Source: Cellulophaga sp. Hel_I_12
GTDB lineage: Bacteria > Bacteroidota > Bacteroidia > Flavobacteriales > Flavobacteriaceae
DNA: 64,000 nucleotides
NCBI RefSeq assembly: GCF_000799565.1
Contig: NZ_JUHB01000001.1
Span: forward strand, 1,925,501-1,989,500
Reading direction: 5' to 3'
Part shown: one piece after another, positions 2,658 to 40,271 of the stretch
How positions within the stretch are numbered: position 1 is the first letter of the stretch
Layout: each line of letters opens with the position of its first letter
Notes under the pieces: generated by a model
Database searches by the model: none
Told to the model about the DNA's origin: nothing
What the model saw: only the letters and a program-made list of their open reading frames with translations
Position numbers and translations under genes: made by a program

Positions 2658-4529
2658 CTATTTCAATTTAAAAATTAACGACTGCAAAGGCGCTAATGAA
2701 ATTGAAAAATGCCCTACGCCATTTTCATCGAGCTTCATTTGTACTTTAATCGCCTCGTATAATTGGTCTTCTAAAGTATATGTACCTTGTTCTAATTGCC
2801 ATTTTGAAGTAATTTCCTGAGGAACTTTAACCTCTAAGGTATAGTCTTTTTCACTGTCAAAATTACTCAAGATGATCAATTTTTCATTCTCTGACCATCT
2901 TACATAGGAAAAAACGCGATGATCGTAGGTTGCTGTATGTTCTTTATTGTAATAATGAATTTCTTGGTAATCGCCCATTAGGGCTTCACTCTGAATGGTA
3001 AAATTTAATAAGCGCTTATAAAAATCGCGTAGCGCTTTTTCTTCATTGGTGGATTGTCCGCCATCAAATTTTTTATGATTTACCCATCGTTGTAAAGTGG
3101 GCACCCCTATATAATCAAAAATAGATGTTCTACTAGGACTTCCAAATCCTGCTTTTTCAGCGCCAGGCTCCCCTAATTCTTGTCCGAAATAAATCATGGT
3201 TGGCGAGGTGCTGATTGTAGCAGAAATAACCATCGCTGGCATCGCTTTTTTAGGGTCTCCAGCAAACTCAGGACTTGCAATACGTTGTTCGTCGTGGTTT
3301 TCTAAAAAATGAAGCATGTGATGCTCAATATCTTTCAGGCCACGTTGCACGGTTTCAATATGATCTGTCCAACCGTGACCCGCCATGATATGTTTTATAC
3401 TATCATACAATTCTACTTTATCATATAAATAGTCCATTTTCCCTTTGTGGATATACTCTCGATATAAGGCCGGATTATACACTTCCGCCAATAAAAAGGC
3501 TTCTGGATTTTTCATTTTAATGCTAGAATTCATATAACTCCAAAACTCTACAGGTACCATTTCTGCCATATCAAAACGAAAACCATCCACACCCATTGCT
3601 AACCAATACAAGGCAATATCTTTAAACTTTTTCCAAGAACTAGGTACATCTTTATCTCGCCAAAAAGTGTAATGCTCCTTATAATCTTTGGTGTCAAAAT
3701 TTACGGGTAGGGTGTCAAAATCGTAAGACCCATCTGGTTTTACACCATAATTAATTTTCACGGTTTCATACCAATCATTGGCATCAGGTTGTGCCAATCG
3801 GGAACCATTACCCGTCCATCGCGCAGGAATTTCTTTATATTTTCCATCCACCAAACTGGGAGAAGTTCCACCTAAAGGCTGATACCCGTCACGCCATTCA
3901 GGCACTTTAAATTCACTATTCGGTACGTAATAAAAATTATTATCACGTTTGTAAGCTACACTGGGATCGTCTGATACCCCGAAAGGTGCTAAGCCTTCGG
4001 GAGTTGATTTTCCTTCATAATTTCTGGCTACATGATTGGGAACAATATCGATAAGGACATTCATTCCGGCATCGTGAGTTCTCTTTATTAAATTTTTGAA
4101 CTCTGCTAACCGATCTTGAGGATTATCCGCCAAATCAGGATTTACGTTATAATAATCTTTTACCGCATAAGGTGATCCTGCTCTGCCTTTGACAATATCC
4201 GGATCGTCATTTGAAATTCCGAAGGCGGTATAATCTCGAATTACATCATGATGTGGAATTCCAGTATACCAAATATAGGTAACTCCTAAACTTTTAATTT
4301 CTTGAAGTGCCTTTGGGGTAAAATCAGAAAATTTACCCACACCATTTTCTTCTATGGTGCCCCAAGCTTTATTCGTGGTATTTGTATTTCCGAAAAGTCT
4401 TGTAAATACCTGATAAACAACTTCTTTCTTCTTTTTGGGTATGGTTTTATTCATTTTCGATTCCTCTTTAGTCTCTTGTTTACAAGCAACTAAGCTTAGT
4501 ATTAGAATAAGTACGATTTTTATTTTCAT
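2658..4529 (-). CDS. GH13 alpha-amylase-family lipoprotein
   Basis: This 623-residue glycoside hydrolase has a lipobox (LSLVAC, Cys16) and should act on alpha-glucans at the cell envelope. The four GH13 regions are visible: region I VLIDIVPNHV (158-167), region II GFRFDMAE with nucleophile Asp320, region III LLAEVYN with acid/base Glu349, and region IV LENHDEQR with Asp413. Between regions I and II sits an insertion of about 130 residues, as in neopullulanase/cyclodextrinase-like or SusG-like enzymes. A C-terminal beta-sandwich follows from about residue 520. It is the last gene of the minus-strand arm after LacI regulator, phosphoglucomutase and GH65 phosphorylase, which supports maltodextrin degradation. 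A 7-bp-phased repeat lies directly upstream of its start codon. Amylase, neopullulanase and 4-alpha-glucanotransferase activities cannot be told apart here. Confidence 0.93.
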   Translation of the reverse strand: MKIKIVLILILSLVACKQETKEESKMNKTIPKKKKEVVYQVFTRLFGNTNTTNKAWGTIEENGVGKFSDFTPKALQEIKSLGVTYIWYTGIPHHDVIRDYTAFGISNDDPDIVKGRAGSPYAVKDYYNVNPDLADNPQDRLAEFKNLIKRTHDAGMNVLIDIVPNHVARNYEGKSTPEGLAPFGVSDDPSVAYKRDNNFYYVPNSEFKVPEWRDGYQPLGGTSPSLVDGKYKEIPARWTGNGSRLAQPDANDWYETVKINYGVKPDGSYDFDTLPVNFDTKDYKEHYTFWRDKDVPSSWKKFKDIALYWLAMGVDGFRFDMAEMVPVEFWSYMNSSIKMKNPEAFLLAEVYNPALYREYIHKGKMDYLYDKVELYDSIKHIMAGHGWTDHIETVQRGLKDIEHHMLHFLENHDEQRIASPEFAGDPKKAMPAMVISATISTSPTMIYFGQELGEPGAEKAGFGSPSRTSIFDYIGVPTLQRWVNHKKFDGGQSTNEEKALRDFYKRLLNFTIQSEALMGDYQEIHYYNKEHTATYDHRVFSYVRWSENEKLIILSNFDSEKDYTLEVKVPQEITSKWQLEQGTYTLEDQLYEAIKVQMKLDENGVGHFSISLAPLQSLIFKLK

Positions 4530-7116: not shown

Positions 7117-7770
7117 TTAAGAAATAAGGGTTTCTAAAAACGATAATTCTATGTGAGTAAAATCTAAAAAATTATACTTTGCCTCTGACAATATTTTGGC
7201 GTCTCCGATACCGATGCTTATCATTTTTGCCGCGTTAGCTGCTTGGATTCCAGCAACGGCATCTTCGAAAACAATGCAATTTTCTGGATTTATTCCTAAC
7301 TGTTCGGCTGCCATCAGAAAAACTTCTGGATTTGGCTTTGCTTTTGTTACATGATTACCATCTACAATAACATCAAAATAAGAAAGTAAATTTACTTTTT
7401 CTAATATTGGTCTCGCATTTTTACTCGCAGAACCTAAAGCAATAGGAATCTTATTAGACTTTAGATAGTTCAATACTTTAGGCACATCAGGTAAAATTTC
7501 AGATGAATCCATAGCTTCGATATACCTCAGATAATCTTCATTTTTTTCAATCATCCAAGTATCAAATTGTTTTTGTGTGGCAATGACTCCTCCAATATCT
7601 AATAAAATTTCTAAACATCGTTTTCTGCTAACCCCCTTAAAAAGTTCATTTTGGTCGATGGTAAACTCAAATCCCAATTGATTGGCTAATTTTTTCCAAG
7701 CCAAATAATGATACTTTGCCGTGTCAACGACAACACCATCTAAATCAAAAATAAATCCTGTATGCTTCAT
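7117..7770 (-). CDS. pgmB: Beta-phosphoglucomutase
   Basis: This HAD-superfamily enzyme should convert beta-glucose-1-phosphate to glucose-6-phosphate. I start it at the ATG of MKHTGFIFDLDG (217 residues) rather than at an in-frame ATG 54 bp upstream that lies inside the preceding regulator gene; AGGTG 6 bp before the chosen ATG supports this. Motifs are FDLDGVVVDT with nucleophile Asp9 and acid/base Asp11, the helical cap with WKKLANQLG, motif II LGSAS, motif III Lys in TKAKPNPEVF, and motif IV VFEDAVAGIQAA. It sits 25 bp after the LacI-type gene and upstream of the GH65 phosphorylase, a pairing typical of maltose phosphorylase pathways. Confidence 0.95.
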   Translation of the reverse strand: MKHTGFIFDLDGVVVDTAKYHYLAWKKLANQLGFEFTIDQNELFKGVSRKRCLEILLDIGGVIATQKQFDTWMIEKNEDYLRYIEAMDSSEILPDVPKVLNYLKSNKIPIALGSASKNARPILEKVNLLSYFDVIVDGNHVTKAKPNPEVFLMAAEQLGINPENCIVFEDAVAGIQAANAAKMISIGIGDAKILSEAKYNFLDFTHIELSFLETLIS

Positions 7771-7795
7771 TACTACACCTATAATCTTAACTTCA

Positions 7796-8818
7796 TTAGT
7801 TTTCTGTTGATTCTCTTTCCACAATGGTGGCTTCTAATATTTCTGTTCTAAAGGTTTCTACATCATTTTCACTCTCTACCTTTTCGATGAGCATTTCCGC
7901 TGCTATCTCCCCCATTTTTTCTCCATGCTGCGCTACAGATGTTAATGTAGGGTTTGAAAATTTTGATAAGATACCATCCGTAAATCCTATAAAAGAAATA
8001 TCTTCTGGTATTTTATAGCCCATTTTTTGAGCGATACGCATGCCATGAATAGCATAAATTTCATTCACACATAAAACAGCATCTACTTGCTGATTTTTAA
8101 AAAAGGTTTCCATTTTATCTCCTTCAACACTGCTCATAGATGGTAATTTTAGAATTAAATTTTCATCTATTTCTATGTCAGACTCTTTTAAGGCTTGTAA
8201 ATATCCCATTGTTCTATCTTTACTCACACTCAGATAGTCTTCAGTGGCAATTAAAGCTATTTTTTTTCTTCCATTTGAAAGTAGTTTTTTAACCGCTCTA
8301 TACGCACCATCTTTATCATTGATTAATACCTTATCACAGGCTACTGAATCGGTCACTCGATCAAACAGCACCAATGGTATACCTTGTTCAATTAATTCAT
8401 TTAAATGGTTGTAGTCGTTATTTAGTTGCGTTTCTGCAGATAAAGACATGATAAAGCCATCGACGCTGCCATTCGCGAGAATTTCCATGTTAATTACTTC
8501 CTTATCAAAAGATTCGTCCGAGACACAAACAATAACATTGTAGCCTTTTGCATTCGCGTATTTTTCGATTCCTCTAAAAACTGTGGTGAAAAAATGGTGT
8601 ACGATATCTGGAATAATTACGCCAATATTTTTAGTTCTTTTATTTTTTAAACTAATCGCTATATTATTGGGTTTGTAGTTGTATAATTTAGCGAAAGCTT
8701 GTATTTTTTCCTTGGTGTCTCGACTAATTTCCTCACTATTTTTTAAAGCTTTAGATACCGTTGAAATCGAAACTTCTAATTCTCTTGCGATATGCTTTAA
8801 AGTTATTTTTTGTTTCAT
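7796..8818 (-). CDS. LacI/GalR-family transcriptional regulator
   Basis: A 340-residue regulator. The N-terminus MKQKITLKHIARELEVSIST is the LacI helix-turn-helix, followed by VSKALKNSEEIS and the hinge helix region YKPNNIAISLKNKRTKNIGV. From about residue 62 there is a periplasmic-binding-protein-like sugar-binding domain (IGVIIPDIVHHFFTTVFRGI, then VDGFIMSLS, and TSVAQHGEKMGEIAAEMLIEK near the end). It heads the minus-strand arm with pgmB, GH65 and GH13, and is divergent to SusC. The effector is probably a maltose-related sugar or sugar phosphate, inferred from context. The operator candidate at 9125-9140 is its likely target. Confidence 0.95.
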   Translation of the reverse strand: MKQKITLKHIARELEVSISTVSKALKNSEEISRDTKEKIQAFAKLYNYKPNNIAISLKNKRTKNIGVIIPDIVHHFFTTVFRGIEKYANAKGYNVIVCVSDESFDKEVINMEILANGSVDGFIMSLSAETQLNNDYNHLNELIEQGIPLVLFDRVTDSVACDKVLINDKDGAYRAVKKLLSNGRKKIALIATEDYLSVSKDRTMGYLQALKESDIEIDENLILKLPSMSSVEGDKMETFFKNQQVDAVLCVNEIYAIHGMRIAQKMGYKIPEDISFIGFTDGILSKFSNPTLTSVAQHGEKMGEIAAEMLIEKVESENDVETFRTEILEATIVERESTEN

Positions 8819-9233
8819 TTGCTATTTTTATAATGTAACTTTTAGAGTATCTATGGAATAACCTAATGCCTATTTATACCTTTAACATCTTTACTGTTGC
8901 TCTTTTAAAAAATCAAAATGTTAAATTAGTATTTAATTAGCCAAACTATATGAATTGTTGATTTTTTAACAATTGACCAAATAAAATACAGTGCTACCTA
9001 ATTAAATAAAAATTGTATATTTGGTAAAAAAGGCAAAATTACAATTATAACATCAAAAAATTGAGAATATCGTATTCTTCTATAACTTTTATTACAAGGA
9101 TAACAATTTAAAAAAGTTATCAACACGAAACCGTTTTCGTAAATTTTGAAACACAAAGGAATGAGATTTTAACAAAAAATTTGTATATTTTTAACTTTCG
9201 ATTATAAATTAACTCAACTTAAATTAATTATTT
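8819..9233. other. 415-bp divergent regulatory region between lacI-type gene and susC
   Basis: Very AT-rich with no ORF. It holds one clear LacI-type operator (listed separately), a dyad AATTGTT/AACAATT at 8953-8959 and 8968-8974, and one isolated TATATTTG -7-like box at 9017-9024. I could not find a convincing TTTG -33 element at proper spacing for either gene. The unusual length fits divergent control of both arms of the locus. Confidence 0.6.
9125..9140. promoter_or_regulatory. LacI-family operator candidate
   Basis: The 16-mer ACGAAACCGTTTTCGT is symmetric at 14 of 16 positions around a central CG, the usual LacI-family operator form. It is 93 bp upstream of the SusC start and about 306 bp from the LacI-type gene start. 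With a LacI-type gene as the divergent neighbour, binding by that protein is the simplest reading. Whether it represses or activates cannot be decided because the SusC promoter is unclear. Confidence 0.75.
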
Positions 9234-13883: not shown

Positions 13884-13917
13884 AAAAAGGGATACTTTTA
13901 TAAAGTATCCCTTTTTT
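13884..13917 (+). terminator. Rho-independent-type hairpin after SusD
   Basis: A 10-bp perfect stem GGGATACTTT/AAAGTATCCC with a 3-nt loop is flanked by AAAAA and TTTTTT, which extends pairing. It lies between SusD and the first repeat-protein gene, only 28 bp before that gene's ATG. It may set a high SusCD to low downstream transcript ratio rather than fully stop transcription. Confidence 0.85.
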
Positions 13918-13944: not shown

Positions 13945-16900
13945 ATGAAATACGTACTACTGATTGTTATATTAAGTACCCTATTCTTTTCCTGTGATTC
14001 AAAAAAAAGTGAATCTACCTTATACCTCTTAAAAGATAACTCAACTGGCATTGAGTTTGAAAATACACTAGTGTATACCGAGCAATTAAACCCCTATACC
14101 TATAGAAATTTCTATAACGGAGGTGGTGTAGCTCTAGGTGATATTAACAACGATGGACTATTAGATATTTATTTTACCGGAAATTTAGTCAACAATAAAT
14201 TATACCTCAACAAAGGAAATTTTAAGTTTGAAGATATCACGAGTAAGGCAGGTGTTGCCTGTGATAACGTGTGGTCTTCAGGAGCAACTTTTGTCGATAT
14301 TAATAATGATGGTTTACTTGATATCTATGTATGCAAGGCCGGGCCACCTAGCGATAGCCCAAATAGGTCAAACGAATTATTTATAAATAATGGTGACTTA
14401 ACCTTTACTGAACAATCTAAAAAGTATGGCTTAAATATTACAGGTTTATCTGTACAAGCTGCATTTTTTGATTTTGACAAAGACGGAGATTTAGATTGCT
14501 ATTTATTAAATAATTCTATTCGCTCCGTTGGCGGTTACGATTTAATAAAAGATCAAAGAGATAAAGCAACAGCATCAGGAAATAAACTATTCAAGAATGA
14601 AAATGGATTTTTTATAGATGCATCTAAAGAAAATAATATCTACACAAGTGCTATAGGCTTCGGTTTAGGCATAACTTTAAGTGACTTTAATCAAGATAAT
14701 TGGACAGACATTTATATTTCTAATGATTTTTTTGAAAAAGATTATTTATACCTGAATAACAACGGATTAAATTTTGAAGAAAGTGTTGAAGAAAAATTTA
14801 ATGCTATTCCCATGGGTTCCATGGGGGCTGATGCCGCAGACTTAGATAACGATTTACTACCAGATATGATGGTCACAGAAATGTTGCCTCAAACCTTAGA
14901 ACGCCAAAAATCAAAAGCAACCTACGAATCTTGGGATAAATATTCATTAGCTGTAAAAAACGGTTATTTTTACCAATTTCCCAGAAATGCATTACAGCGT
15001 AATTTAGGAGCATCAGGTTTTATGGAAATTAGCCGATTTTCTGGGGTTGATGCCACAGAATGGAGCTGGGGAACCTTATTATTTGATATGAATAACGATG
15101 GTTTAAAAGATATTTTTGTGAGCAACGGTATTTATAAAGACCTTCTCGATAGAGACTATCTTAACTATATGGCCAACGAAGCTCAAATTAGAAATATGAT
15201 GAGTAATGACAAAAACATCATTACAAAATTAATAGATTTGATGCCTTCTAAAGCCATCCCCAACGCTGCCTATTTAAATTTAGGCGACTTTTCCTTTAAA
15301 GAAGCAAATGAAGAATTGGGCTTAAATACACCAAGCTTTAGTAACGGCAGCGCTTACGGGGATTTAGACAATGATGGAGATTTAGACCTGGTGGTGAATA
15401 ACGTAAACATGGCTTCTTTTGTCTATGAAAACACCACAGATACCACTAAAAACAAATTTATAAAAATTCGTTTTAAAGGAAAAGGAAATAATACAAGTGC
15501 TATTGGTACTAAAATTATTGCTTACTTTGACAAGGGAAAGAATAGCATGTTTGAAAATTACCCTTCCAAAGGATTTCAAAGTTCCGTGGCACCCGAAATT
15601 TTAATGGGATTTGGAAATATTTCTACCGTAGATAGTTTAGTGGTAATTTGGCCAGACCAGGCTATAAGGGTTTTGAAAAACCTTACAGTCAATAAAACCA
15701 TTACTATTGAACAACAAAACAGCTCAACTAAAAAATATAGTCCTCCAAAGAAAATAGCAGCCTTTGGTATCGAAAAAATAGCACCCTTTTTTAGCTTTAA
15801 ACACGAAGAAAATAATTACATCGACTTTAAAAGAGAACAACTACTGGATAGGATGACTAATAATGAAGGTCCAGCCATGGCGACAGCTGACTTGAATGGT
15901 GATGGATTTGTAGACTTTTATTTAGGTGGGGCTAAAAACCAAAAGAGTCAATTATTTATGTCGAACAAAGATGGCTCTTACGCCACTATCGACAAGCCTT
16001 TTGAATTCGATAAAAATGCAGAAGACACAGATGCAATCTTTTTCGACAGTGATTTAGATGGTGATTTAGACCTTTATGTTTGTAGCGGTGGCAAAGCCTT
16101 TTCTAAATACGACTCTAATTTAGAAGACCGGCTCTATATTAATACGAACAATACCTTTATAAAAAGCACCTCACCCCTTCCCTTTCCTAAAAGAATTAGC
16201 AGCGCAAGCGTTGAGGCTTTCGATTATGATTTAGATGGTGATTTAGACTTATTCGTAGGAGAAAGGTATAACCCACAAGTTTATGGAGAGCCTAGTTCAG
16301 GATTCCTTTTAAAAAATGAAGGCAATAATAAATTTAGCCTAGACCAACAGGGTACATTTGAAAGTATTGGTATGATTACTAAAGTAGTTAGCGCTGACTT
16401 AAATAATGATAATTGGCCTGATTTAGTCATTGGCGGTGAATGGATGCCGATTTCGATATTTATCAACAAAAATGGACAGTTTATTAATGAGACGAATTCA
16501 TTTCAACTAAACAAAAGTGTTGGTATATGGTCTACATTAGCGATAAACGATATCGATGATGATGGTGATTTTGATATTATTGCTGGCAATATAGGCCAAA
16601 ATAACTTTTACAAAAAAGGAACAACGATTTTCGTATATGATTTTGATAACAATGGTACTACAGAACAAATTATTTGTCAAAAAACAAATGGAAAATATTA
16701 TCCTATCGCGGATCGAGACGAGTTAATTTCACAAATACCTTCCTTGAAAAAGAAATTATTATATTATAAAGATTATGCCATAGCTGATATGGAGACTATG
16801 TTTACTGCAGAAACGCTAAAAGCTTCCGTAAAATTAACACTCGATACCAGTGCATCTGCACTTTTTATAAATCATAACAATACATTTGAAAGCCTAATTT

Positions 16901-17208
16901 TACCCCCAGAGATTCAGTATTCACAGAACTATGCCATACAAGTTTATGATATTACTAAAGATGGTGTTAAAGATATTTTTTTTGGTGGCAATCAAGACTT
17001 AATAAAGCCAAGATTTGGTAAATTAGATGCCTCAAAAGGTTGGCTTTTAACGGGAACAAAAATTAACGGGCAGTATCGTTTTAATGAAGTAAGCCCTCTA
17101 AATATATCAGGACAAATTAGGGGCTTTAAAATTATTCAATACAATCAAAGAACAATACTCACCACCAGTATAAATAATGATATTTTAAATTTTTATGAAA
17201 TCAAATAA
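13945..17208 (+). CDS. FG-GAP/VCBS-repeat ASPIC/UnbV lipoprotein, copy 1
   Basis: A 1,087-residue surface or periplasmic lipoprotein (lipobox LFFSC, Cys17). It has at least seven FG-GAP/VCBS-type blades between residues 58 and 490, each with a DxNNDGxxD calcium-loop motif (DINNDGLLDIY at 66-76, DFDKDGDLDCY, DLDNDGDLDLV at 473-483). An ASPIC/UnbV-type segment follows (about 515-590: NTSAIGTKI, SKGFQSS, VIWPDQAIRVL), then a second repeat set from about 640 (DLNGDGFVDFY, DSDLDGDLDLY). This implies a pair of calcium-stabilised beta-propellers. No enzyme motif is visible. It is the first of three paralogues after SusCD. Binding or scaffolding of glycan is an inference. Confidence 0.9.
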   Translation: MKYVLLIVILSTLFFSCDSKKSESTLYLLKDNSTGIEFENTLVYTEQLNPYTYRNFYNGGGVALGDINNDGLLDIYFTGNLVNNKLYLNKGNFKFEDITSKAGVACDNVWSSGATFVDINNDGLLDIYVCKAGPPSDSPNRSNELFINNGDLTFTEQSKKYGLNITGLSVQAAFFDFDKDGDLDCYLLNNSIRSVGGYDLIKDQRDKATASGNKLFKNENGFFIDASKENNIYTSAIGFGLGITLSDFNQDNWTDIYISNDFFEKDYLYLNNNGLNFEESVEEKFNAIPMGSMGADAADLDNDLLPDMMVTEMLPQTLERQKSKATYESWDKYSLAVKNGYFYQFPRNALQRNLGASGFMEISRFSGVDATEWSWGTLLFDMNNDGLKDIFVSNGIYKDLLDRDYLNYMANEAQIRNMMSNDKNIITKLIDLMPSKAIPNAAYLNLGDFSFKEANEELGLNTPSFSNGSAYGDLDNDGDLDLVVNNVNMASFVYENTTDTTKNKFIKIRFKGKGNNTSAIGTKIIAYFDKGKNSMFENYPSKGFQSSVAPEILMGFGNISTVDSLVVIWPDQAIRVLKNLTVNKTITIEQQNSSTKKYSPPKKIAAFGIEKIAPFFSFKHEENNYIDFKREQLLDRMTNNEGPAMATADLNGDGFVDFYLGGAKNQKSQLFMSNKDGSYATIDKPFEFDKNAEDTDAIFFDSDLDGDLDLYVCSGGKAFSKYDSNLEDRLYINTNNTFIKSTSPLPFPKRISSASVEAFDYDLDGDLDLFVGERYNPQVYGEPSSGFLLKNEGNNKFSLDQQGTFESIGMITKVVSADLNNDNWPDLVIGGEWMPISIFINKNGQFINETNSFQLNKSVGIWSTLAINDIDDDGDFDIIAGNIGQNNFYKKGTTIFVYDFDNNGTTEQIICQKTNGKYYPIADRDELISQIPSLKKKLLYYKDYAIADMETMFTAETLKASVKLTLDTSASALFINHNNTFESLILPPEIQYSQNYAIQVYDITKDGVKDIFFGGNQDLIKPRFGKLDASKGWLLTGTKINGQYRFNEVSPLNISGQIRGFKIIQYNQRTILTTSINNDILNFYEIK

Positions 17209-17800
17209 TCTAAAACAGCTTTTGCTATTCTTATTCGTATTTTTAACAGTTTTAACGGCTTGCCAGTCTGATTACACTAAGTTGGTGACCAAAGAAATGA
17301 ACAGTGGAATTGTCCATGATTCAATCCTATTTGGCTTAAAATTCGGAGATTCAAGGAATAAATTTTTTGAGCGCTGTATGGAGTTAAACAAAAAAAAATT
17401 AGTTTCTCAAGGACCTAATAATAATTATGTTCAGTACAGACTTCCTATTCATAAAAACGCCGATGTAAATGGCAATATTGACATGATGTTTTATGCGAAA
17501 TTTACTGAACTTGATAAAATTAAAGCTATGGATTTAAAGTTCAATTATGCGAGCTGGTCCCCTTGGAACGAAAACCAACATGCAAAAAAACTTACTCCCG
17601 TTGTCATTGATACGATTCTAAAATGGTATCCAGGAAATAAATTCATTGAGGTAGTGAAAAAAGACGAAACAAAAGTTTTAGTAAAAGTTGATGGCAATAG
17701 ACAAATAACCTTATTTCCTGAAGAAAACACAAAAGATGTTTCAGTACTTATCGAAGATTTAAGAATTAAAATGAAAATGAAAATGAAAAATAGCAAATAA
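17195..17800 (+). CDS. Unrecognised 201-residue lipoprotein inside the repeat-protein cassette
   Basis: I do not recognise a family. The first 23 residues form a lipoprotein leader (VFLTVLTAC, lipobox Cys at 23), and the mature part is about 178 residues, mixed alpha/beta in appearance with no repeats or catalytic motif. Features are IVHDSILFGLKFGDSRNKFFERC in two parts around residues 39-62, a Trp-rich YASWSPWNE, and a basic tail of repeated Lys-Met encoded by an ATGAAA microrepeat near 17771-17790. It overlaps the first repeat-protein gene by 14 bp and ends 1 bp before the second, so it is translated as part of the cassette and is probably a small partner subunit. Confidence 0.75.
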   Translation: MKSNNLKQLLLFLFVFLTVLTACQSDYTKLVTKEMNSGIVHDSILFGLKFGDSRNKFFERCMELNKKKLVSQGPNNNYVQYRLPIHKNADVNGNIDMMFYAKFTELDKIKAMDLKFNYASWSPWNENQHAKKLTPVVIDTILKWYPGNKFIEVVKKDETKVLVKVDGNRQITLFPEENTKDVSVLIEDLRIKMKMKMKNSK

Positions 17801-17801
17801 C

Positions 17802-20800
17802 ATGTATAAAGCTAAATACTTTGTTGTCTTCTTAATGTATATTTTACTCTTTTCTTGTACAAATGAAGAAGTGAAAAAAGAAACGCTTTTTGAATTGGTA
17901 AGTGCTAATGAATCGGGTATCTCATTTACAAACCAACTCAGCTTTTCACAAGACTTTAATGTCTATAAATATCGCAATTTTTATAATGGAGGTGGTGTTG
18001 CCATAGGTGATATCAATAATGACGGTTTAGTTGATATCTACTTAACTGCAAACCAAGCCACAAATAAACTATTTTTAAATAAGGGAAATTTCAAGTTTGA
18101 AGATATTACCGATAAAGCTAAAGTTGGGGGAACCAAGGCCTGGTCCACAGGAGTCACCATGGTCGATATCAATGGCGACGGATTTTTAGATATTTATGTG
18201 TGTAATTCGGGTGATGTTGTTGGAGATAACAAACAAAACGAATTATTTATAAATAATGGCGATAGTACTTTTACCGATCAAGCAGAAGTCTATGGCCTTG
18301 ACGACAAAGGTTTTTCCACACATGCCTCATTTTTTGATTTTGATAAAGATGGTGATTTAGATGTGTACCTCTTAAACAATTCGTATCAAGCAATAGGTAG
18401 TTTTAACTTACAACGAAATGAGCGTCCTAAACGCGATATTCTAGGTGGTGATAAGTTATTAGAAAATGTAGATGGCAAGTTTGTTGACATCAGTGAAAAA
18501 GCAGGAATTTATGGCAGTGTTATAGGCTTTGGTTTAGGAGTTACTATTGGTGATACCAACAATGATGGATGGGAAGATATTTTTGTTTCAAATGATTTTT
18601 TTGAGCGCGACTATTTATATATCAATCAAAAAAATGGCACTTTTAAAGAAGCCCTGACAAATCAAATGAAATCGATAAGTGGTGCATCTATGGGTGCAGA
18701 TATGGCTGATATTAATAACGATGGCTTTAATGACATCTTTGTAACCGAAATGTTACCCTCTGAATATAAGAGACTAAAAACAGTAACTACTTTTGAAGAT
18801 TGGAATAAATACCAATACAATGTAAAAAATGGGTACTATCATCAATTTACCAGAAACACCCTTCAATTGAATAATGGAAATGAAACCTTCAGCGAAATTG
18901 GCCGTTTAGGAGGCGTTCAAGCATCTGATTGGAGTTGGGGAGCCTTACTTTTTGACATGGACAATGATGGTTTAAAAGATTTATTTATAGCCAACGGTAT
19001 TTATAAAGATTTAACAAATCAAGATTATTTGCAGTATATTTCTAATGAAGAAGTTATTAAAGGTATTGTTAAAAATCAAGAAATAGACTTTAATAAATTA
19101 ATTGAAATTATTCCATCTAATGAAATTGAAAATCAGTCTTATAAAAACTTAGGTAAGCTTGAATTTAAATTGTTTGAAGATTCTGGATTGCAACAAAAAA
19201 GCTTTTCAAATGGTTCCGCTTATGGGGATTTTGATAATGATGGCGATTTAGACCTTGTGGTCAATAATGTAAACATGCCGTTTTTTTTATACAGAAACAC
19301 CTCAGATACCAAAAAAAATAATAATTATTTAAAACTAATTTTAAAGGGCGAGGGTAAAAACACGAACGCTATCGGAGCCCAAATACGCATAGAAACTGCC
19401 ACAGATAGCTTTTATATGGAACAACAGCCTATTAGAGGGTTTCAATCGAGTATGGATTTAAGACCAAACGTGGGTATTGGCAAAGCGGTTAAAGCCACTG
19501 TAAAAATTACTTGGCCAAATGGTAAAGTTTCTATTTTAAAAGATCAAGATGCAAACCAAAGTATTATTTTATATCAGAAGGATGCCTTAAACCCAGTGCC
19601 AGTTGATCCGAGTGATGCTTCTTCCCTTTTTGCGAAAAGTGATACTCCCTTAAACTATTTACATATTGAAAGTAGGTTTATAGATTTCAACAGAGATCGA
19701 CTTCTTAATCACATGCTCAGCACAGAGGGCCCTAAATTAGCTTTAGGCGATGTAAATAATGACGGGATTACCGATGTTTTTATTGGAGGCGCAAAAGGAC
19801 AAGCCTCTAGTTTATATTTAGGAACAAAAACAGGATTCACTTTAAGCAAAAACTTAGACTTCGATAAAAATGCTATCAGCGAAGATACTGCAAGTGTGTT
19901 TTTTGATGCCGATAATGATGGTGATTTAGATTTATATGTTTGTAGTGGTGGTGTTGAATTTTCTCCTTTTTCTCCTAATTATTACGATCATTTATACCTA
20001 AACAACGGTACAGGTAAATTTATCGATTCTAATCAAAAACTACCGCTAATTGATGTTTATAAAAGCACAAGTACAGTACAACCTATAGATTTTGATGCCG
20101 ATGGCGATCTAGACTTATTTGTTGGCGAGAGAAGCGTTCCAGGTAGATATGGTGTTAAAGGTTCTGGCTTTCTCCTAGAAAATGACGGAAAAGGTAATTT
20201 TAAAGATGTTACTAGTAGAGTAGCACCACAACTTTTAAATATTGGTATGATTACCGATGCATTAGTTGCCGATCTAAACAATGATAAACTCCCTGATCTT
20301 GTTGTTATTGGGGAGTTTATGGATATTCAGATTTTTGCATCTAAAAATGGAACATTAGAAAAATCAACTGCAAATAATGCTGAAGTAATCTCTGGTTGGT
20401 GGAATACAGTAAAAGCAGCGGATTTAGATAATGACGGAGACCTTGATTTAATTATAGGAAACCACGGTTTAAACAGTCAATTTAAAGCTTCAAAAGAACA
20501 TCCAATACGCTTATACGCTAAAGATTTTGATAAAAATGGTTATATAGATCCCATTCTAACTTTTAATGCCCCGAACGGAAAGGATTATCCGTATGCTTTG
20601 CGGCATGATTTAATAGACCAAATTAAAAGTCTGAAAAAGAAATTTCCAAATTATGCTTCTTTTGAAGATGCCACGATTCAAGATATGTTTGATGCTGAAG
20701 ATTTAAAAGATGTTATTCCATTAGAGGCTAACACCATGGAAACCATACTATTAATTAATGAAGGTAACTTTAAGTTCAAAAAACAAAAATTACCTGTGGC

Positions 20801-21104
20801 CGCGCAATTAGCACCAATTTATGCTATTGAAACCTATGATTTTGATGGTGATAATGATATTGATATTCTCATGGGTGGCAACCTCTTTAATGTAAAACCA
20901 CAAGTAGGTAGGTATGACGCCAGCTACGGTGTTTATCTTGAGAATAAAGGAAATTTAAATTTTGAGACCTCCAATAAAAATAACGGATTCACACTATTTG
21001 GGGAAATAAGAGATATAAAAATAGATGCTAAAAAAGAGCAATTCTATGTAACGAGAAATAATGATTCAATCGCAACCTTTACGTTTAAAAATAATGATAA
21101 ATAA
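17802..21104 (+). CDS. FG-GAP/VCBS-repeat ASPIC/UnbV lipoprotein, copy 2
   Basis: A 1,100-residue paralogue of the preceding repeat protein, with lipobox LLFSC (Cys19). It shares the NFYNGGGVAIGDINNDGL opening blade, YVCNSGD, the acidic DFDKDGDLDVY and DFDNDGDLDLVVNNVN blades, and the conserved SDWSWGALLFDMDNDGLKD stretch. The ASPIC/UnbV segment (NTNAIGAQIRI, IRGFQSSMD, ITWPNGKVSIL, about 515-590) is followed by a second propeller-like set (DVNNDGITDVFIGGAKG, DADNDGDLDLYVCSGG, DFDADGDLDLFVGERSVPG). It starts 1 bp after the small lipoprotein gene and overlaps the third copy by 11 bp. No catalytic residues are recognised; structural or ligand-binding use is inferred. Confidence 0.9.
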   Translation: MYKAKYFVVFLMYILLFSCTNEEVKKETLFELVSANESGISFTNQLSFSQDFNVYKYRNFYNGGGVAIGDINNDGLVDIYLTANQATNKLFLNKGNFKFEDITDKAKVGGTKAWSTGVTMVDINGDGFLDIYVCNSGDVVGDNKQNELFINNGDSTFTDQAEVYGLDDKGFSTHASFFDFDKDGDLDVYLLNNSYQAIGSFNLQRNERPKRDILGGDKLLENVDGKFVDISEKAGIYGSVIGFGLGVTIGDTNNDGWEDIFVSNDFFERDYLYINQKNGTFKEALTNQMKSISGASMGADMADINNDGFNDIFVTEMLPSEYKRLKTVTTFEDWNKYQYNVKNGYYHQFTRNTLQLNNGNETFSEIGRLGGVQASDWSWGALLFDMDNDGLKDLFIANGIYKDLTNQDYLQYISNEEVIKGIVKNQEIDFNKLIEIIPSNEIENQSYKNLGKLEFKLFEDSGLQQKSFSNGSAYGDFDNDGDLDLVVNNVNMPFFLYRNTSDTKKNNNYLKLILKGEGKNTNAIGAQIRIETATDSFYMEQQPIRGFQSSMDLRPNVGIGKAVKATVKITWPNGKVSILKDQDANQSIILYQKDALNPVPVDPSDASSLFAKSDTPLNYLHIESRFIDFNRDRLLNHMLSTEGPKLALGDVNNDGITDVFIGGAKGQASSLYLGTKTGFTLSKNLDFDKNAISEDTASVFFDADNDGDLDLYVCSGGVEFSPFSPNYYDHLYLNNGTGKFIDSNQKLPLIDVYKSTSTVQPIDFDADGDLDLFVGERSVPGRYGVKGSGFLLENDGKGNFKDVTSRVAPQLLNIGMITDALVADLNNDKLPDLVVIGEFMDIQIFASKNGTLEKSTANNAEVISGWWNTVKAADLDNDGDLDLIIGNHGLNSQFKASKEHPIRLYAKDFDKNGYIDPILTFNAPNGKDYPYALRHDLIDQIKSLKKKFPNYASFEDATIQDMFDAEDLKDVIPLEANTMETILLINEGNFKFKKQKLPVAAQLAPIYAIETYDFDGDNDIDILMGGNLFNVKPQVGRYDASYGVYLENKGNLNFETSNKNNGFTLFGEIRDIKIDAKKEQFYVTRNNDSIATFTFKNNDK

Positions 21105-24100
21105 GCACTATGTTTTTTTACTAGTTGCTACACTATGCTTAGGGTACTCATGTAAGGATAAAAATATTAAAAATGAAGCGACTGAGGGCACTCCCCTTTT
21201 TAAGGCCGTGCCTAAGGATAGTAGTGGACTTTCATTTGTAAATCAACTAACGTATAAAGAAGATTTAAATATTATAGATTATTTGTATTACTATAACGGC
21301 GGCGGTGTTGCTATTGGTGATATAAATAATGATGGTTTAGAAGATATCTACTTCACCGCAAATCAAAGTTCTGATAAGTTATTTTTGAACTTAGGCAACT
21401 TAAAATTTAAAGACATTACTAAAAGTGCGGGAATTTTAATGGATAGCACATGGTCTACTGGTGTTACCATGGAAGATTTAAATAACGATGGACTCTTAGA
21501 TATTTATGTTTCTAAAGTTGGTGTTTTTAAAAATTTAGAAACCCATAATAAGGCCTATATTAATCAAGGAAATTTAACTTTTAAAGAAGAAGCTACTACA
21601 TTGGGTATCGACTTCGCTGGCTATAGTACGCAAGCAGCATTTTTTGATTATGATAATGATGGTGATATGGACATGTACTTATTAAATCACTCCATTCATA
21701 CACCAAGAAGTTATGGAACTGCACAAAAAAGAAATGAAAATGATAGCCTTTCAGGGGACCGTTTCTATGAAAATAAACTGAACGAAGGCATTTTTAAATT
21801 TGATGATGTTACCCAAGATAGCGGTATTTTCTCTAGCGCCCTAGGGTATGGTCTTGGAATCGTTGCTAGTGATATTAATAAGGACGGATTTATAGATGTT
21901 TATGTCACTAATGACTTTCATGAAAATGATTATCTATACCTCAACCAAGGAAATAAGACCTTTAAAGAAGCTTCAAATGAACTATTACAACACACCAGTA
22001 GATTTTCTATGGGTGTTGATATTGCCGATATTAATAATGATTTACTTCCCGATATTTTCACCTTAGATATGATGCCTTATGATCATCAAATATTCTTAAA
22101 ATCTGGTGGTGAAGATTCTGATAAGGTCACTGAGATTAAGAAAAAATTCGGTTTTAATCCACAATCGACAAGAAATAGTTTTCAATTAAATAACGGTGAC
22201 AACTCGTTTACAGACATAGCCTTACTAACAAACACCTATGCTACCGACTGGAGTTGGTCGACGTTGATCCAAGATTTCGATAATGATGGGCTAAATGACA
22301 TTTTCATCACAAATGGTATTTTCAAAAGACCGAACGATTTAGATTATATTAATTATTTGAGTTCTGTAAATTTTGCGGACTATTCACAAAATGAACAAAC
22401 GGATTTAGAAAAAAAATTAATCGAACAAATGCCATCGCTTAAAATTCCGAATGTACTTTTTAAAAATGAAGGGGATTTAAAGTTCAAAAAACTATCTAAA
22501 GAAGTAGGTTTATCCGATTCCTACTCCAACGGGGCGGCTTATGCCGATTTAGATAATGATGGTGATTTAGATATCGTTATTAATAATATTAACGAAAACA
22601 TTACTTTATTAGAAAATAGTACTGCTAAAAATGAACGTCACAATTACGTAGAAATCCGTTTAAAAAACAACGATTTAAACAAAAACTCAAATGGAGTTAA
22701 AGTTATCTTGTATGCCGATCATCAATCTTTTGAAAAACAAGTGAGCCCCACTCGAGGTTTTCAGTCATCTTCTACAAGAAATCTTCATTTTGGAATTGGT
22801 GCAATTTCTAAAATTGATTCGGCTCAGATAATTTGGAAAGATAATTTAATACAATCTGAAACTGCTATAAAAATAAATGGCAGTACTAGTATTGCAAAAA
22901 AGAATAATCTCAAAAGCGTATCCTTACCTTATCAAAATAACAATGTTGATTACACGTATTTTCCATACCAACATATTGAAAACCCTTATCAAGATTATTC
23001 AAGAGAACCTTTAATTCCAGAAAAATTATCTCATGAAGGGCCAGCTGTGATTTATGAGGATTTTAATGGTGATGGTTTAAAGGACTTATATCTAGGTGGC
23101 GCAAGAAATCAAAAACCTAGCTTTTTTGTGCAAACACAAAACAAGGACTTTAAATTAATGCAGATTTTAGCTTTTAACAAAGATGAAGCCTACGAGGATG
23201 TGGCTATTGGTGCCTTTGATTTAGAAAAAGATGGGGATTTGGACTTATACGTAGTTAGCGGCGGAAATGATTTGGATCAAGGCGATCCCAATTTGCAAGA
23301 TCGAATATATGTCAATGATGGGAAAGGCAATTTTGAACGCTTAGAAGCTCAACTACCAGCAACGAATGGAGGTAGTATTGCCGTCGGAGATTTCAATTCT
23401 GATGGGTATGATGATATATTTGTAGGAGGCAGGTCTGTACCTGGCGTTTATGGGCTATCACCAGTAAGCTTAATTTTAAAAAATACCACTAAGGGTAATT
23501 TTGAAGTAGTTGCTCAAGATAAATTAGGCATGATAACCGATAGTCGATGGATTGATATTAATAACGACACCCATCAAGACCTGATCCTAGTGGGCGATTG
23601 GATGCCGATAACCATTTTAATGAATAACGGCCAAGGAAAGTTCACCGATGAAACTAAAAACCTTGGTTTAAATGAAACCCAGGGTATGTGGAACACCCTA
23701 GCATTTTCGGATTTAGATGAAAATGGGAAGGTAGATATTATTGCCGGCAATGTGGGTACAAACTTTAAATGGAAAGCGAGTTCATCAAATCCTGTTCGCT
23801 TATATCTAGACGATTTTGATAAAAACGAACAACCAGATCCCATTATTTTTTACGATTTTTTTGGGCATCATGTTCCCTTTGCCTCAAAAGATAAATTAGT
23901 AGCACAACTTCCTTATCTCAAAAAGAAATTTACGAACTATGCTTTATTTTCAAAAATTAAAAATATTGAAGATTTGACAGGAAAAGCTGAAAAAGATATC
24001 GCTATTAAAAAAGAGATAAAAGAGCTAAAATCAATGATGTTTTTAAATGAAGGAGATTCATTTAAAGCAGTCGCTTTGCCTAAAGAAGCTCAATTTAGTG

Positions 24101-24372
24101 CTATTCAACATATTATCGTTGACACGTTTAATACTCAAAAAGCTATTTATTATATAGGAAATAATTTAAGCTATGTTACAGAACTTGGTCAGAGTGATGG
24201 CAATGCAGGTGGTGTTTTAACAGCGTATAAAGATGGCGTTTTTGAAAAAATACTATCTTTGAAACTTCCAAATAAAATCGCTTACAAAAAAATAATTAAA
24301 TTAAATAAAGATCAATTTCTCGTAATAAGCAACAACGAAAAAGCTTACATTATAAGTCCTCAACAAAAATAA
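21094..24372 (+). CDS. FG-GAP/VCBS-repeat ASPIC/UnbV lipoprotein, copy 3
   Basis: I chose the ATG of MINKHYVFLLVATLCLGYSC (1,092 residues) because it begins a lipoprotein leader (Cys20); an ATG 33 bp upstream would add residues that spoil the leader. The gene overlaps the end of copy 2 by 11 bp. Architecture matches the other two: blades with DINNDGLEDIYF, DYDNDGDMDMYLLN and DLDNDGDLDIVINN, an ASPIC/UnbV segment (NSNGVKVILY, TRGFQSSSTRNLHFGIG), then DFNGDGLKDLYLGGARNQ and the conserved late segment EGPAVIYEDFNGDG. It is the most diverged copy (NHSIHTPRSYG loop). The three copies point to old duplication with retained distinct roles. Confidence 0.9.
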   Translation: MINKHYVFLLVATLCLGYSCKDKNIKNEATEGTPLFKAVPKDSSGLSFVNQLTYKEDLNIIDYLYYYNGGGVAIGDINNDGLEDIYFTANQSSDKLFLNLGNLKFKDITKSAGILMDSTWSTGVTMEDLNNDGLLDIYVSKVGVFKNLETHNKAYINQGNLTFKEEATTLGIDFAGYSTQAAFFDYDNDGDMDMYLLNHSIHTPRSYGTAQKRNENDSLSGDRFYENKLNEGIFKFDDVTQDSGIFSSALGYGLGIVASDINKDGFIDVYVTNDFHENDYLYLNQGNKTFKEASNELLQHTSRFSMGVDIADINNDLLPDIFTLDMMPYDHQIFLKSGGEDSDKVTEIKKKFGFNPQSTRNSFQLNNGDNSFTDIALLTNTYATDWSWSTLIQDFDNDGLNDIFITNGIFKRPNDLDYINYLSSVNFADYSQNEQTDLEKKLIEQMPSLKIPNVLFKNEGDLKFKKLSKEVGLSDSYSNGAAYADLDNDGDLDIVINNINENITLLENSTAKNERHNYVEIRLKNNDLNKNSNGVKVILYADHQSFEKQVSPTRGFQSSSTRNLHFGIGAISKIDSAQIIWKDNLIQSETAIKINGSTSIAKKNNLKSVSLPYQNNNVDYTYFPYQHIENPYQDYSREPLIPEKLSHEGPAVIYEDFNGDGLKDLYLGGARNQKPSFFVQTQNKDFKLMQILAFNKDEAYEDVAIGAFDLEKDGDLDLYVVSGGNDLDQGDPNLQDRIYVNDGKGNFERLEAQLPATNGGSIAVGDFNSDGYDDIFVGGRSVPGVYGLSPVSLILKNTTKGNFEVVAQDKLGMITDSRWIDINNDTHQDLILVGDWMPITILMNNGQGKFTDETKNLGLNETQGMWNTLAFSDLDENGKVDIIAGNVGTNFKWKASSSNPVRLYLDDFDKNEQPDPIIFYDFFGHHVPFASKDKLVAQLPYLKKKFTNYALFSKIKNIEDLTGKAEKDIAIKKEIKELKSMMFLNEGDSFKAVALPKEAQFSAIQHIIVDTFNTQKAIYYIGNNLSYVTELGQSDGNAGGVLTAYKDGVFEKILSLKLPNKIAYKKIIKLNKDQFLVISNNEKAYIISPQQK

Positions 24373-24394
24373 AGATCAAAACCTCAAGTATATT

Positions 24395-25720
24395 ATGACA
24401 CTCAAGAACGTTTTTTTTGCTGCCATTCTAGTTTTTTTTGTAAGCTGCAAAGAAAATACAGCATATAAAGAAAAATTGCAAGATCCCGAACTTTTTCAAA
24501 GTTCCATGAAAAAGCTTACAGATGTAATTGTGTATGACATTTTTTCGCCGCCAGTGGCATCTAGAGTTTATATGTACCCGACAATAGCCTCTTACGCTAT
24601 TATGCAAAAAGCACATCCAGGAAAGTACAATACACTAGAAGGCCAAATCAACGATTACACGAATATTCCAGACCCAACAGACGAGAATACCGACATGAAT
24701 CTGGCGGCCATTCATGCTTTTTTAACCATAGGAAGGCAGCTTATTTTCTCGGAAGAAAAAATTAATGAATTTCAAGATAAAACCTATGCTGATTTACAAG
24801 AAGCTGGTTTAACAGATGAGGTCTTAGAAGCTTCAAAAAAATATGGAGAGGTAGTAGCACAACATATTTCAAAATGGGCAGATACTGATATGTATAAACA
24901 AACAAGGACGTATCCAAAATATACGATTCTTGATGAACCACAATACTGGAAGCCTACCCCACCCGATTATATGGATGGTATAGAGCCGTCATGGAATAAA
25001 ATAAGGACATTGGTGTTAGATTCTGCCGGACAATTTCCTCCGATACCGCCTTTACCTTATGATTTAACAGAAGGGAGTCCGTTTCAAACACAATTAATGC
25101 AAGTGTATCACGAAGGCTCTGGAACCGATCAAAATAAAAGAGATATTGCAAGTTTTTGGGATTGTAACCCCTATGTGTCTCACCACCGCGGACACGCCAT
25201 GTTTGCTACAAAAAAAATAACACCAGGAGGCCACTGGATGGGTATTACCGCAATTGCCAGTAGAAAATCGAAGAGTACTTTTGACGAAACGGTAAATGCC
25301 TACACTAATGTAACTACCGCACTTTTTGATGGTTTTATAAGTTGTTGGGACGAAAAGTGGCGAAGCTTGTTGGTTCGACCAGAAACTGTCATTAATGCAA
25401 ACATCGATGAAGAATGGGTACCCCTTCTACAAACACCTCCATTTCCTGAATATACAAGTGGCCATTCTGTAATCTCAAGAGCTGCTGCTGTTACCTTAAC
25501 CAATTTATACGGCCCTAACTTTGCTTTTGATGATACCACTGAAGTAGAATACGGACTACCCGTACGCAGTTTTACCTCTTTTATACATGCGTCTGAAGAA
25601 GCTGCCATATCAAGATTATACGGCGGAATTCATTATATGATGGCTATCGAGGAAGGTGTAAAACAAGGTGAAAAAGTGGGTCAGCACATTACTAAAAACC
25701 TAGTCACCTTAAAAAGGTAA
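24395..25720 (+). CDS. PAP2/vanadium haloperoxidase-superfamily lipoprotein
   Basis: A 441-residue lipoprotein (FFVSC, Cys18) carrying the vanadate/phosphate-binding signature of the PAP2-haloperoxidase superfamily: KWRSLLVRP (Lys321, Arg328), YTSGHS (Ser355-Gly356-His357) and SRLYGGIHY (Arg407, His413). The length and all-helical N-terminal half resemble vanadium-dependent haloperoxidase-type proteins rather than short PAP2 lipid phosphatases. It closes the cassette, 22 bp after the third repeat protein. From sequence alone it may be a haloperoxidase or an acid phosphatase. The lipid anchor places it in the envelope, where hydrogen peroxide and halide, or phosphate esters, are accessible. 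Confidence 0.88.
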   Translation: MTLKNVFFAAILVFFVSCKENTAYKEKLQDPELFQSSMKKLTDVIVYDIFSPPVASRVYMYPTIASYAIMQKAHPGKYNTLEGQINDYTNIPDPTDENTDMNLAAIHAFLTIGRQLIFSEEKINEFQDKTYADLQEAGLTDEVLEASKKYGEVVAQHISKWADTDMYKQTRTYPKYTILDEPQYWKPTPPDYMDGIEPSWNKIRTLVLDSAGQFPPIPPLPYDLTEGSPFQTQLMQVYHEGSGTDQNKRDIASFWDCNPYVSHHRGHAMFATKKITPGGHWMGITAIASRKSKSTFDETVNAYTNVTTALFDGFISCWDEKWRSLLVRPETVINANIDEEWVPLLQTPPFPEYTSGHSVISRAAAVTLTNLYGPNFAFDDTTEVEYGLPVRSFTSFIHASEEAAISRLYGGIHYMMAIEEGVKQGEKVGQHITKNLVTLKR

Positions 25721-25737: not shown

Positions 25738-25788
25738 TGCAAGAAACAAAAAGGAGCTAGTGTAACTAGCTCCTTTTTGTTTCTTGCA
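25738..25788. terminator. Bidirectional terminator with perfect 24-bp stem
   Basis: Arms 25738-25761 and 25765-25788 are perfectly complementary (TGCAAGAAACAAAAAGGAGC... against GCTCCTTTTTGTTTCTTGCA) around a 3-nt loop. A-rich and T-rich parts within the stem supply the U-tract in both directions. It separates the convergent haloperoxidase-like and symporter genes. Confidence 0.93.
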
Positions 25789-27389: not shown

Positions 27390-27628
27390 GTTCTTATCCT
27401 TAATTTGATTATATGGGTTAAATATATATGAATATTTAGAAAGAACTCAATTTAGGCGGCAATAAAACCAACTATTCTTTTTTTTTACTTCAATAAGGGT
27501 ACTACAACGTTTTCATAAACCATTAAATTATTTTTAACAGGGTTTTAATTGTTTTAAAAAAGGTATTTTGTTGCTTTGTACCCTAAAGCATGTCTTTTAG
27601 TGTTATTTATTTTTACTCCATTCTAAAA

Positions 27629-28480
27629 ATGAAATATCTTAGCCTTGTATTGTTTTTATTTTTACTTTCAGCCTGTGCAAATTATGGGCAGTTGACTGTT
27701 ATCACCAAATTACCTAAAAGTTTAAAGGAGAATTCCGGTATCGCTTATTACAAAGATGACAAGGTTTGGACCATTGAAGACCACGGCAACAAGGATGTCA
27801 TTTATCAGGTAGATTTTAAAGGAAATATTACACGTGAATTTAAAGTTAAAAATGCTAAAAACGAAGATTGGGAAGATCTTACTACAGATAAAAGGGGTAA
27901 TTTATATGTAGCCGATATAGGCAATAACGATAACGACCGAAAAGATTTAGTAATTTACAAACTTCCCAACCCTGAAAGGGAATCAGACGATAAAATTAGC
28001 GCTGTAAAAATTGAATTTAGCTATCCAGAACAGGCTGAATATCCACCCAAAAATGCCGATTTATTATTCGATGCTGAAGCCATATTTCATCTTGGGAACC
28101 ATTTGTTTATTATTACAAAAAATAGAGCTACCCCTTTTAATGGAAAAACCTTAATTTATAAAATACCTGATACGGAAGGAAATCACTCTGCTCAATTTAT
28201 AGATCAGTTCGTAACCTGTGAAAATGAAGCGGTTTGTAAAATAACTTCCGCAGCTGTTTCTCCAAGCGGAAAAAAAGTTGTGCTACTCAGCTATGGATTT
28301 TTATGGGTATATTCTGATTTCAGCGGTGATAAATTTTTAGAAGGAAATTTAAAAAAAATTGATCTTGGGGTAAGAACACAATTGGAGGCGGTTTGCTTTA
28401 AAGACGAAAATACCCTATTGTTATCTGATGAAGAACGCGCTCAAACAGGACAAAACTTGTATTCGTTTAAACTAGAGTAA
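27629..28480 (+). CDS. SdiA-regulated/NHL-like beta-propeller lipoprotein
   Basis: I start at MKYLSLVLFLFLLSACANYG (283 residues, lipobox LLSAC), 39 bp inside the longest frame, because it opens a clean lipoprotein leader. The mature part has propeller-like strands: ENSGIAYYKDDKVWTIEDHG, NEDWEDLTTDKRGNLYVADI, GNNDNDRKDLVIYKLP, LEAVCFKDENTLLLSDEE. These resemble SdiA-regulated or esterase-like phytase-type propellers common in Bacteroidota. The WED-LT and DIGNND motifs are the most conserved I can see. No enzymatic residues are assigned. It is divergent to the symporter (200-bp AT-rich gap without a clear promoter) and convergent with the next gene. Confidence 0.75.
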   Translation: MKYLSLVLFLFLLSACANYGQLTVITKLPKSLKENSGIAYYKDDKVWTIEDHGNKDVIYQVDFKGNITREFKVKNAKNEDWEDLTTDKRGNLYVADIGNNDNDRKDLVIYKLPNPERESDDKISAVKIEFSYPEQAEYPPKNADLLFDAEAIFHLGNHLFIITKNRATPFNGKTLIYKIPDTEGNHSAQFIDQFVTCENEAVCKITSAAVSPSGKKVVLLSYGFLWVYSDFSGDKFLEGNLKKIDLGVRTQLEAVCFKDENTLLLSDEERAQTGQNLYSFKLE

Positions 28481-40150: not shown

Positions 40151-40231
40151 CATATTGAATTTATCCATGCAAAGTACAAATAAATTACTACTAAGTAAAT
40201 TGAAATAAAGCGCTATTATTAAAAATTGATA

Positions 40232-40239
40232 TAGTTTTG
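40232..40239 (+). promoter_or_regulatory. Bacteroidota-type -7 box upstream of the ABC exporter
   Basis: TAGTTTTG fits TAnnTTTG and lies 32 bp before the ABC exporter ATG. No TTTG at 17-23 bp spacing upstream is seen, so this is a weak call. Confidence 0.4.
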
Positions 40240-40271
40240 CCATAACTTGCGACTAAATTGAAAAAAGTAGC

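Follow-up and report, generated by a model that had tools for sequence, protein, structure and literature searches.

What is a peroxidase-like lipoprotein doing at the end of a run of large repeat proteins behind a SusC/SusD transporter pair? The question arises in a 64,000-nucleotide stretch of Cellulophaga sp. Hel_I_12 (contig NZ_JUHB01000001.1, positions 1,925,501 to 1,989,500, forward strand; hereafter the window). The genome is a single contig of 4.03 Mb, and it defines the scope of our searches in the strain itself. At odds slightly better than even (roughly 55%), we read the locus as encoding a surface module under common regulation: CRTAC1-like lipoproteins would take the place that SusE and SusF hold elsewhere, and a tethered peroxidase would accompany alpha-glucan uptake. 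Its core is a cassette of five open reading frames, all on the plus strand and tightly packed behind SusC and SusD. Pfam families refer to a scan of the window proteins from 1261 to 32217 at E ≤ 0.001.

13945..17208, plus strand: A, FG-GAP/ASPIC (CRTAC1-like) lipoprotein, third from the enzyme; eight PF13517 matches and one PF07593; member of the position-3 clade of 19
17195..17800, plus strand: small lipoprotein; no Pfam family; model with a predicted local distance difference test score (pLDDT) of 94 and no clear match in the PDB
17802..21104, plus strand: B, FG-GAP/ASPIC lipoprotein; propeller-type repeats on either side of the ASPIC domain
21094..24372, plus strand: C, FG-GAP/ASPIC lipoprotein; first ATG at 21061, likelier start at 21094
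24395..25720, plus strand: V, vanadium iodoperoxidase-like lipoprotein; PDB 4cit at 2e-149; site residues K321, R328, S355, G356, H357, R407 and H413

Successive reading frames are spaced by -14, +1, -44 (or -11 with the start at 21094) and +22 bp. The original prediction, made from the letters of the sequence, described gaps or overlaps of at most about 22 bp; this holds if C begins at 21094 and fails with the start at 21061, where the overlap is 44 bp. The same prediction called all five products lipoproteins, and a lipobox cysteine was indeed found at residue 17-23 of each N-terminus; the N-terminus of SusD also carries a lipoprotein-type signal. SusC and SusD lie upstream of the cassette as described, at 9234-12227 and 12239-13852. 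The three large proteins had been portrayed as paralogues with FG-GAP sets around an ASPIC/UnbV segment, and Pfam agrees, with eight FG-GAP_3 stretches and one mid-protein UnbV_ASPIC domain in each. Calcium-loop motifs number 11 in A, 13 in B and 9 in C, and the only three ASPIC matches in the genome are all inside the cassette.

V is 52% identical to the vanadium iodoperoxidase VIPO1 of Zobellia galactanivorans (ZgVIPO1; PDB 4CIT, 4USZ), and the match to 4cit covers residues 3-436 of 441 (E 2e-149). The vanadate site proposed earlier, K-x6-RP / SGH / SR-x5-H, was located as K321-x6-R328-P, S355-G-H357 and S-R407-x5-H413. Across 145 aligned enzyme sequences (141 distinct; ZgVIPO1 and V are among them), K321 and R328 never vary, and 144 retain S355, G356, H357, R407 and H413, the one exception being truncated in that part. 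Because this site is conserved across the aligned sequences, haloperoxidase activity is our best guess for V. The original prediction had left halogenation and dephosphorylation side by side; the similarity to 4CIT and the conserved site favor halide peroxidation and disfavor the phosphatase. The further suggestion, that the enzyme's target comes in together with the glycan, gained no support from the analysis. We nevertheless considered that V might be an acid phosphatase of the PAP2 superfamily, removing phosphate from a glycan or glycolipid before uptake. The vanadate and phosphate sites of this superfamily are alike, PF01569 (PAP2) is the sole Pfam match of V, and some of the loci share a large metallophosphatase lipoprotein downstream. 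Against these stand the full-length match to a vanadium-dependent haloperoxidase and the conserved site residues, and we regard a phosphatase as highly unlikely.

V is called iodoperoxidase-like for its similarity to ZgVIPO1, and iodide would be a candidate halide. The closest enzymes among the matches listed are from Cellulophaga, at 90% and 84% identity, and the single other match in the strain's own genome is remote (31%). ZgVIPO1 shares the vanadate-site residues of V, and a copy 98.4% identical to it (locus L128) likewise lies directly behind three ASPIC genes. The stretch upstream of L128 (L239) holds, past several inserted genes, SusD, SusC, LacI, beta-phosphoglucomutase, GH65 and GH13 genes. 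This gene content makes it probable that the Zobellia enzyme already studied is from the same locus type.

To follow the set across genomes, species genomes were scanned for relatives of the enzyme; at least 579 were confirmed, and the best 80 of these were kept as loci. The order A, small lipoprotein, B, C, enzyme was found in 25 of the best 80, or in 27 if two loci whose outer ASPIC copies score best to B (L072 and L080) are included; L001 has its A divided between two frames. Contig ends cut a number of the loci that do not show the full order. Besides Flavobacteriaceae, the 27 include Ekhidna (L045), Cyclobacteriaceae (L056), Imperialibacter (L072) and Haliscomenobacteraceae (L080). The order suggested for the set is thus found in many genomes rather than in one.

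A second survey, chosen as less biased, covered 149 genomes of the family, the strain's own included. The enzyme (E ≤ 1e-30) was present in 60, the small lipoprotein in 19 and an ASPIC domain in 114. Besides the window's own, 63 enzyme copies were fetched, a few of them remote, down to 31% identity; four of these sequences had already appeared among the first 80 loci. Genes in relatives were named by best BLAST hits against proteins of the window and of the first loci. Three ASPIC genes directly precede the enzyme in 28 loci, two do so in 16 and a single one in 8, whereas 11 have none there. Altogether 52 of the 63 copies thus directly follow a run of one to three, and in 49 of these 52 the junction is an overlap or a gap of at most 22 bp. 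ASPIC genes occur anywhere in the stretch in 58/63 loci and SusC with SusD in 42/63, the pair standing directly before the run in 31/63; the small lipoprotein lies within the run in 11/63.

The ASPIC proteins themselves keep their positions. In a tree of 184 proteins (178 distinct) from runs of at least two ASPIC genes, the position labels require 7 Fitch changes, as against at least 71-72 in 200 label shuffles, and A, B and C of the window fall in position-pure clades of 19, 35 and 39 proteins, respectively. Type I loci, which have the small lipoprotein, and type II loci, which lack it, form separate position-1 clades, and the third position of type II loci is spread over several small clades. 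Because the clades are position-specific, the ASPIC proteins look like old distinct subunits and not recent duplicates; the pattern fits a hetero-oligomer, and a physical multi-subunit complex of the cassette proteins is plausible. Together with the conserved gene order, these clades support the suggestion of a co-evolved set.

An AlphaFold2 model of B built from 51 sequences (pLDDT 91.3, predicted TM-score 0.91) had murine CRTAC1 (9etn) as its top structural match (Foldseek 2.2e-26, TMt 0.70, TMq 0.37), and phmmer related the two at 3.4e-15. The match spans about half of B; the C-terminal half of the model again consists of beta strands with calcium-loop motifs. FG-GAP repeats and an ASPIC domain are common to the UnbV-ASPIC/CRTAC1 family and to A, B and C; unlike CRTAC1, the window proteins add a C-terminal FG-GAP set, a lipid anchor and an arrangement as three ordered paralogues.

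What the transporter might carry is suggested by the genes on its other side, which include a divergent operon:

2658..4529, minus strand: GH13 alpha-amylase-family protein with a lipobox at its N-terminus, in the divergent operon; Pfam PF00128
4737..7055, minus strand: GH65 protein; PF03632/03636/03633; NF010380 at 1174.7 bits (cut-off 838), which we take to be a maltose-phosphorylase-like model
7117..7824, minus strand: beta-phosphoglucomutase; TIGR01990 at 229.8 bits (cut-off 189.4)
7796..8818, minus strand: LacI-family regulator; PF00356, PF00532
9234..12227, plus strand: SusC TonB-dependent transporter; TIGR04056
12239..13852, plus strand: SusD lipoprotein; PF07980, PF14322; PDB 3jys at 1.6e-20 and the starch protein SusD (3ck7) at 1.4e-19

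The locus looks like an alpha-glucan polysaccharide utilization locus (PUL), and no SusE or SusF family appears among the Pfam matches. For comparison, 40 of the 42 relatives with SusC and SusD were used; L162 (enzyme 46%) and L167 (29%) had been set aside before counting, and a contig end then cost one of the 40. Of the resulting 39 upstream flanks, three fall short of 19.6 kb. The controls, 39 stretches each 19.6 kb long, came from 26 of these genomes and were taken at fixed offsets or positions. At least one of GH65, beta-phosphoglucomutase, GH13, GH97 and trehalase was found in 20/39 flanks and 2/39 controls (Fisher 8e-6). LacI genes occurred in 28 flanks and 3 controls, and GH65 genes in 18 flanks (with an identity of only 24-25% in two) and 1 control; trehalase (1 flank, 1 control) and GH97 (1 flank, no control) did not differ between the two sets. 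The link to an alpha-glucan locus made in the original prediction thus gains from the flanking enzyme genes, and also from an operator common to part of the loci.

That operator and two hairpins delimit what may be the regulatory layout:

9125..9140, no strand assigned: LacI-type operator candidate ACGAAACCGTTTTCGT, 109 bp before the SusC start
13884..13916, no strand assigned (found on minus and on plus): terminator-like hairpin, candidate attenuator, between SusD and the cassette
25740..25786, plus strand: terminator-like stem of 20 pairs after V

The candidate ACGAAACCGTTTTCGT is an imperfect palindrome of LacI type. It is identical in seven loci (the window included), each time 108-112 bp before SusC, and with up to three mismatches it was found in 19/49 regions upstream of SusC (18 different places, since L108 and L171 coincide) as against 0/147 mononucleotide shuffles, the motif having been derived from the window. 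The 92-bp gap between SusD and A holds a hairpin of 15 pairs followed by T. Such a hairpin was found in 35/40 homologous SusD-ASPIC gaps and in 4/200 mononucleotide shuffles. None occurred in 95 ASPIC-enzyme gaps, of which only 22 are longer than 20 bp and scorable, or where the enzyme directly follows SusD (L027, L037, L060); just one of 52 SusC-SusD gaps was scorable, and the gaps downstream of five other SusD genes, at 10-17 bp, are too short for a hairpin. The idea that the hairpin is special to ASPIC genes was rejected: it is present in 7/7 cases where XylB or an SSF gene follows SusD in the same PUL type, and the control SusD of L228 also has one.

From these elements we infer a layout of operator, SusC-SusD, attenuator, accessory block and terminator, and therefore propose that the SusC/SusD pair may be made in excess. 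In a Muricauda open-SusD PUL, PMC11093988 reports SusC and SusD as highly abundant and the GH13 and GH65 of that PUL as not matching them; because GH13 and GH65 lie outside the block, this pattern is only compatible with attenuation.

Several observations weigh against such a module, and some of them would be expected if the peroxidase were a stress or iodine gene in its own right that only happens to lie in the operon, with SusC/SusD and the ASPIC proteins working without it. Eleven of the 63 copies have no adjacent ASPIC gene, and a number of the first 80 loci hold a solitary enzyme, beside queG, malic-enzyme/ruvA or LacI genes and in some cases between the first two; the enzyme can therefore do without the set. 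XylBA and SSF genes intervene between the ASPIC run and the enzyme in L118 and L129. Upstream of the solitary enzyme genes next to LacI (L012, L023, L028, L030, L031, L040) there was no operator match within four mismatches. No source of hydrogen peroxide was found in the locus. A glucose-oxidase link was also looked for: GMC-type matches number three in the genome and none in the window, which speaks neither for nor against the module. The passages of PMC9296495 that were consulted name vIPO3 as alga-responsive and do not name VIPO1. The independent-gene explanation is countered by the 52/63 copies directly behind ASPIC genes with their tight junctions, and in the window by A-to-V gaps of at most 22 bp with the terminator-like stem after V; we consider it unlikely, though by no means negligible.

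Further objections concern the operator and the substrate. At up to three mismatches, 30/49 SusC upstream regions have no operator, and four of the 19 matches lie at 380-399 bp and not near -110. Of the 28 LacI genes in the upstream flanks, 21 could be scored (7 regions were too short) and five had the operator within the same three mismatches; one LacI gene of a control stretch was also positive, and shuffles gave 2/125. XylA/XylB genes occur in 10/63 loci, six of which have them inserted after SusD and before the ASPIC run (XylA in 1/39 control stretches), and PMC11093988 reports SusC and SusD of the comparable Muricauda PUL as also high on xylan. SusC/SusD and the ASPIC proteins might thus import a xylose-containing glycan, trehalose or a sucrose-like sugar, the alpha-glucan genes being neighbors under the same regulator. 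Trehalase in 8 of the best 80 loci and a sucrose-symporter-like MFS protein (below the curated cut-off) in 24 of the best 80 point the same way. We find another substrate quite unlikely given the excess of GH65 and LacI genes in the flanks over the controls and the match of the window SusD to starch SusD 3ck7.

Other neighborhoods were seen around the enzyme and its relatives. The XylA/XylB loci are L118, L119, L124, L129, L131, L134, L135, L138, L143 and L145. Enzymes without ASPIC genes recur at a chromosomal site after queG, mostly before malic enzyme/ruvA/sprA and sometimes with LacI (L012, L016, L022, L023, L024, L028, L030, L036, L039, L040, L043). In L051, L053, L059, L063 and L067 the context is different: the enzyme is encoded after a DUF1501 gene and a PSCyt1 (planctomycete-type cytochrome domain) gene, and SusC comes after it. 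A protein of about 300 residues with an N-terminal membrane anchor is encoded directly 3' of the enzyme in 32/63 loci (within L115-L159, type II), none of which has the small lipoprotein in the run; the window has no such gene, and one of two scanned members matches the GyrI-like family PF06445 just below cut-off. Downstream of V, the window encodes a 296-residue protein weakly like SdiA-regulated propellers (27590-28480, plus strand), which recurs in 19 relatives; a 1237-residue lipoprotein-type protein joining a metallophosphatase to an Omp85-type end (28504-32217, minus strand), which also recurs downstream of the enzyme; a protein with an HD domain and a Pycsar effector PycTM domain (32273-33475, plus strand), possibly a defense or signaling gene; and a penicillin amidase family protein (37955-40243, minus strand).

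Systems of the Sus/utilisome type encode surface lipoproteins behind SusC and SusD. The window resembles them in this gene arrangement; it differs in having no SusE/F match and in that the peroxidase is the only enzyme encoded behind SusD. A closer likeness is the reduced or 'open-SusD' alpha-glucan PUL of marine Flavobacteriia, for which PMC6298971 and PMC11093988 describe, as in the window, a SusC/SusD pair with one GH13, one GH65 and no SusE/F. This likeness is one of gene content. An open-type SusD site lacks a loop and two residues, and the alignment of the window SusD with 3ck7 does not extend over that loop region. Unlike the reduced PUL, the window locus continues through the ASPIC genes to the peroxidase. 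FG-GAP, ASPIC and peroxidase terms are absent from the main texts of both papers, their supplements lying outside the search. No paper on a SusCD-ASPIC-haloperoxidase set was found by title or abstract opening, a search that likewise left supplements aside, so that absence from print is not established. The PUL type is thus already published, and for its ASPIC-iodoperoxidase part we found no description within the same limits.

The co-regulated surface module that we favor would work as follows. Its setting would be an alpha-glucan uptake locus of maltodextrin/glycogen type, linked to LacI, in marine Bacteroidota. LacI would control the block by way of the operator upstream of SusC, and the hairpin would pass part of the transcription, so that more is made of the transporter than of the accessory block. 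On the cell surface, the propeller lipoproteins would sit with SusC and SusD and may serve, in place of SusE and SusF, as calcium-dependent glycan-binding or scaffold subunits. At the same site the peroxidase might convert hydrogen peroxide and iodide to hypoiodous acid, which would remove peroxide, the cell's own or algal, and discourage competitors where the cell feeds, while GH13, GH65 and beta-phosphoglucomutase would take the glucan to glucose 6-phosphate. Amylose is a host for polyiodide, and one could imagine sugar and iodine being handled together, with hypoiodous acid or polyiodide formed at the transporter, the alpha-glucan carrying iodine and SusC/SusD importing both. Such coupling would fit Arenibacter C-21, where iodine uptake is reported to require glucose, oxygen and calcium (PMC5064120). 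Five or more proteins homologous to the Zobellia enzyme, along with 39 SusD proteins, are encoded in the genome of that strain. Even so, we find it barely credible.

If the co-regulated surface module is read correctly, it supplies a recurring candidate for what fills the SusE/F gap of the reduced alpha-glucan PUL in marine Flavobacteriia, and the vanadium iodoperoxidase of this group gains a genetic setting and a candidate regulator. The physiological role of the iodoperoxidase and its part in marine iodine chemistry would become directly testable, and the recurring set hints at a link of sugar uptake with iodide or peroxide chemistry at the cell surface.

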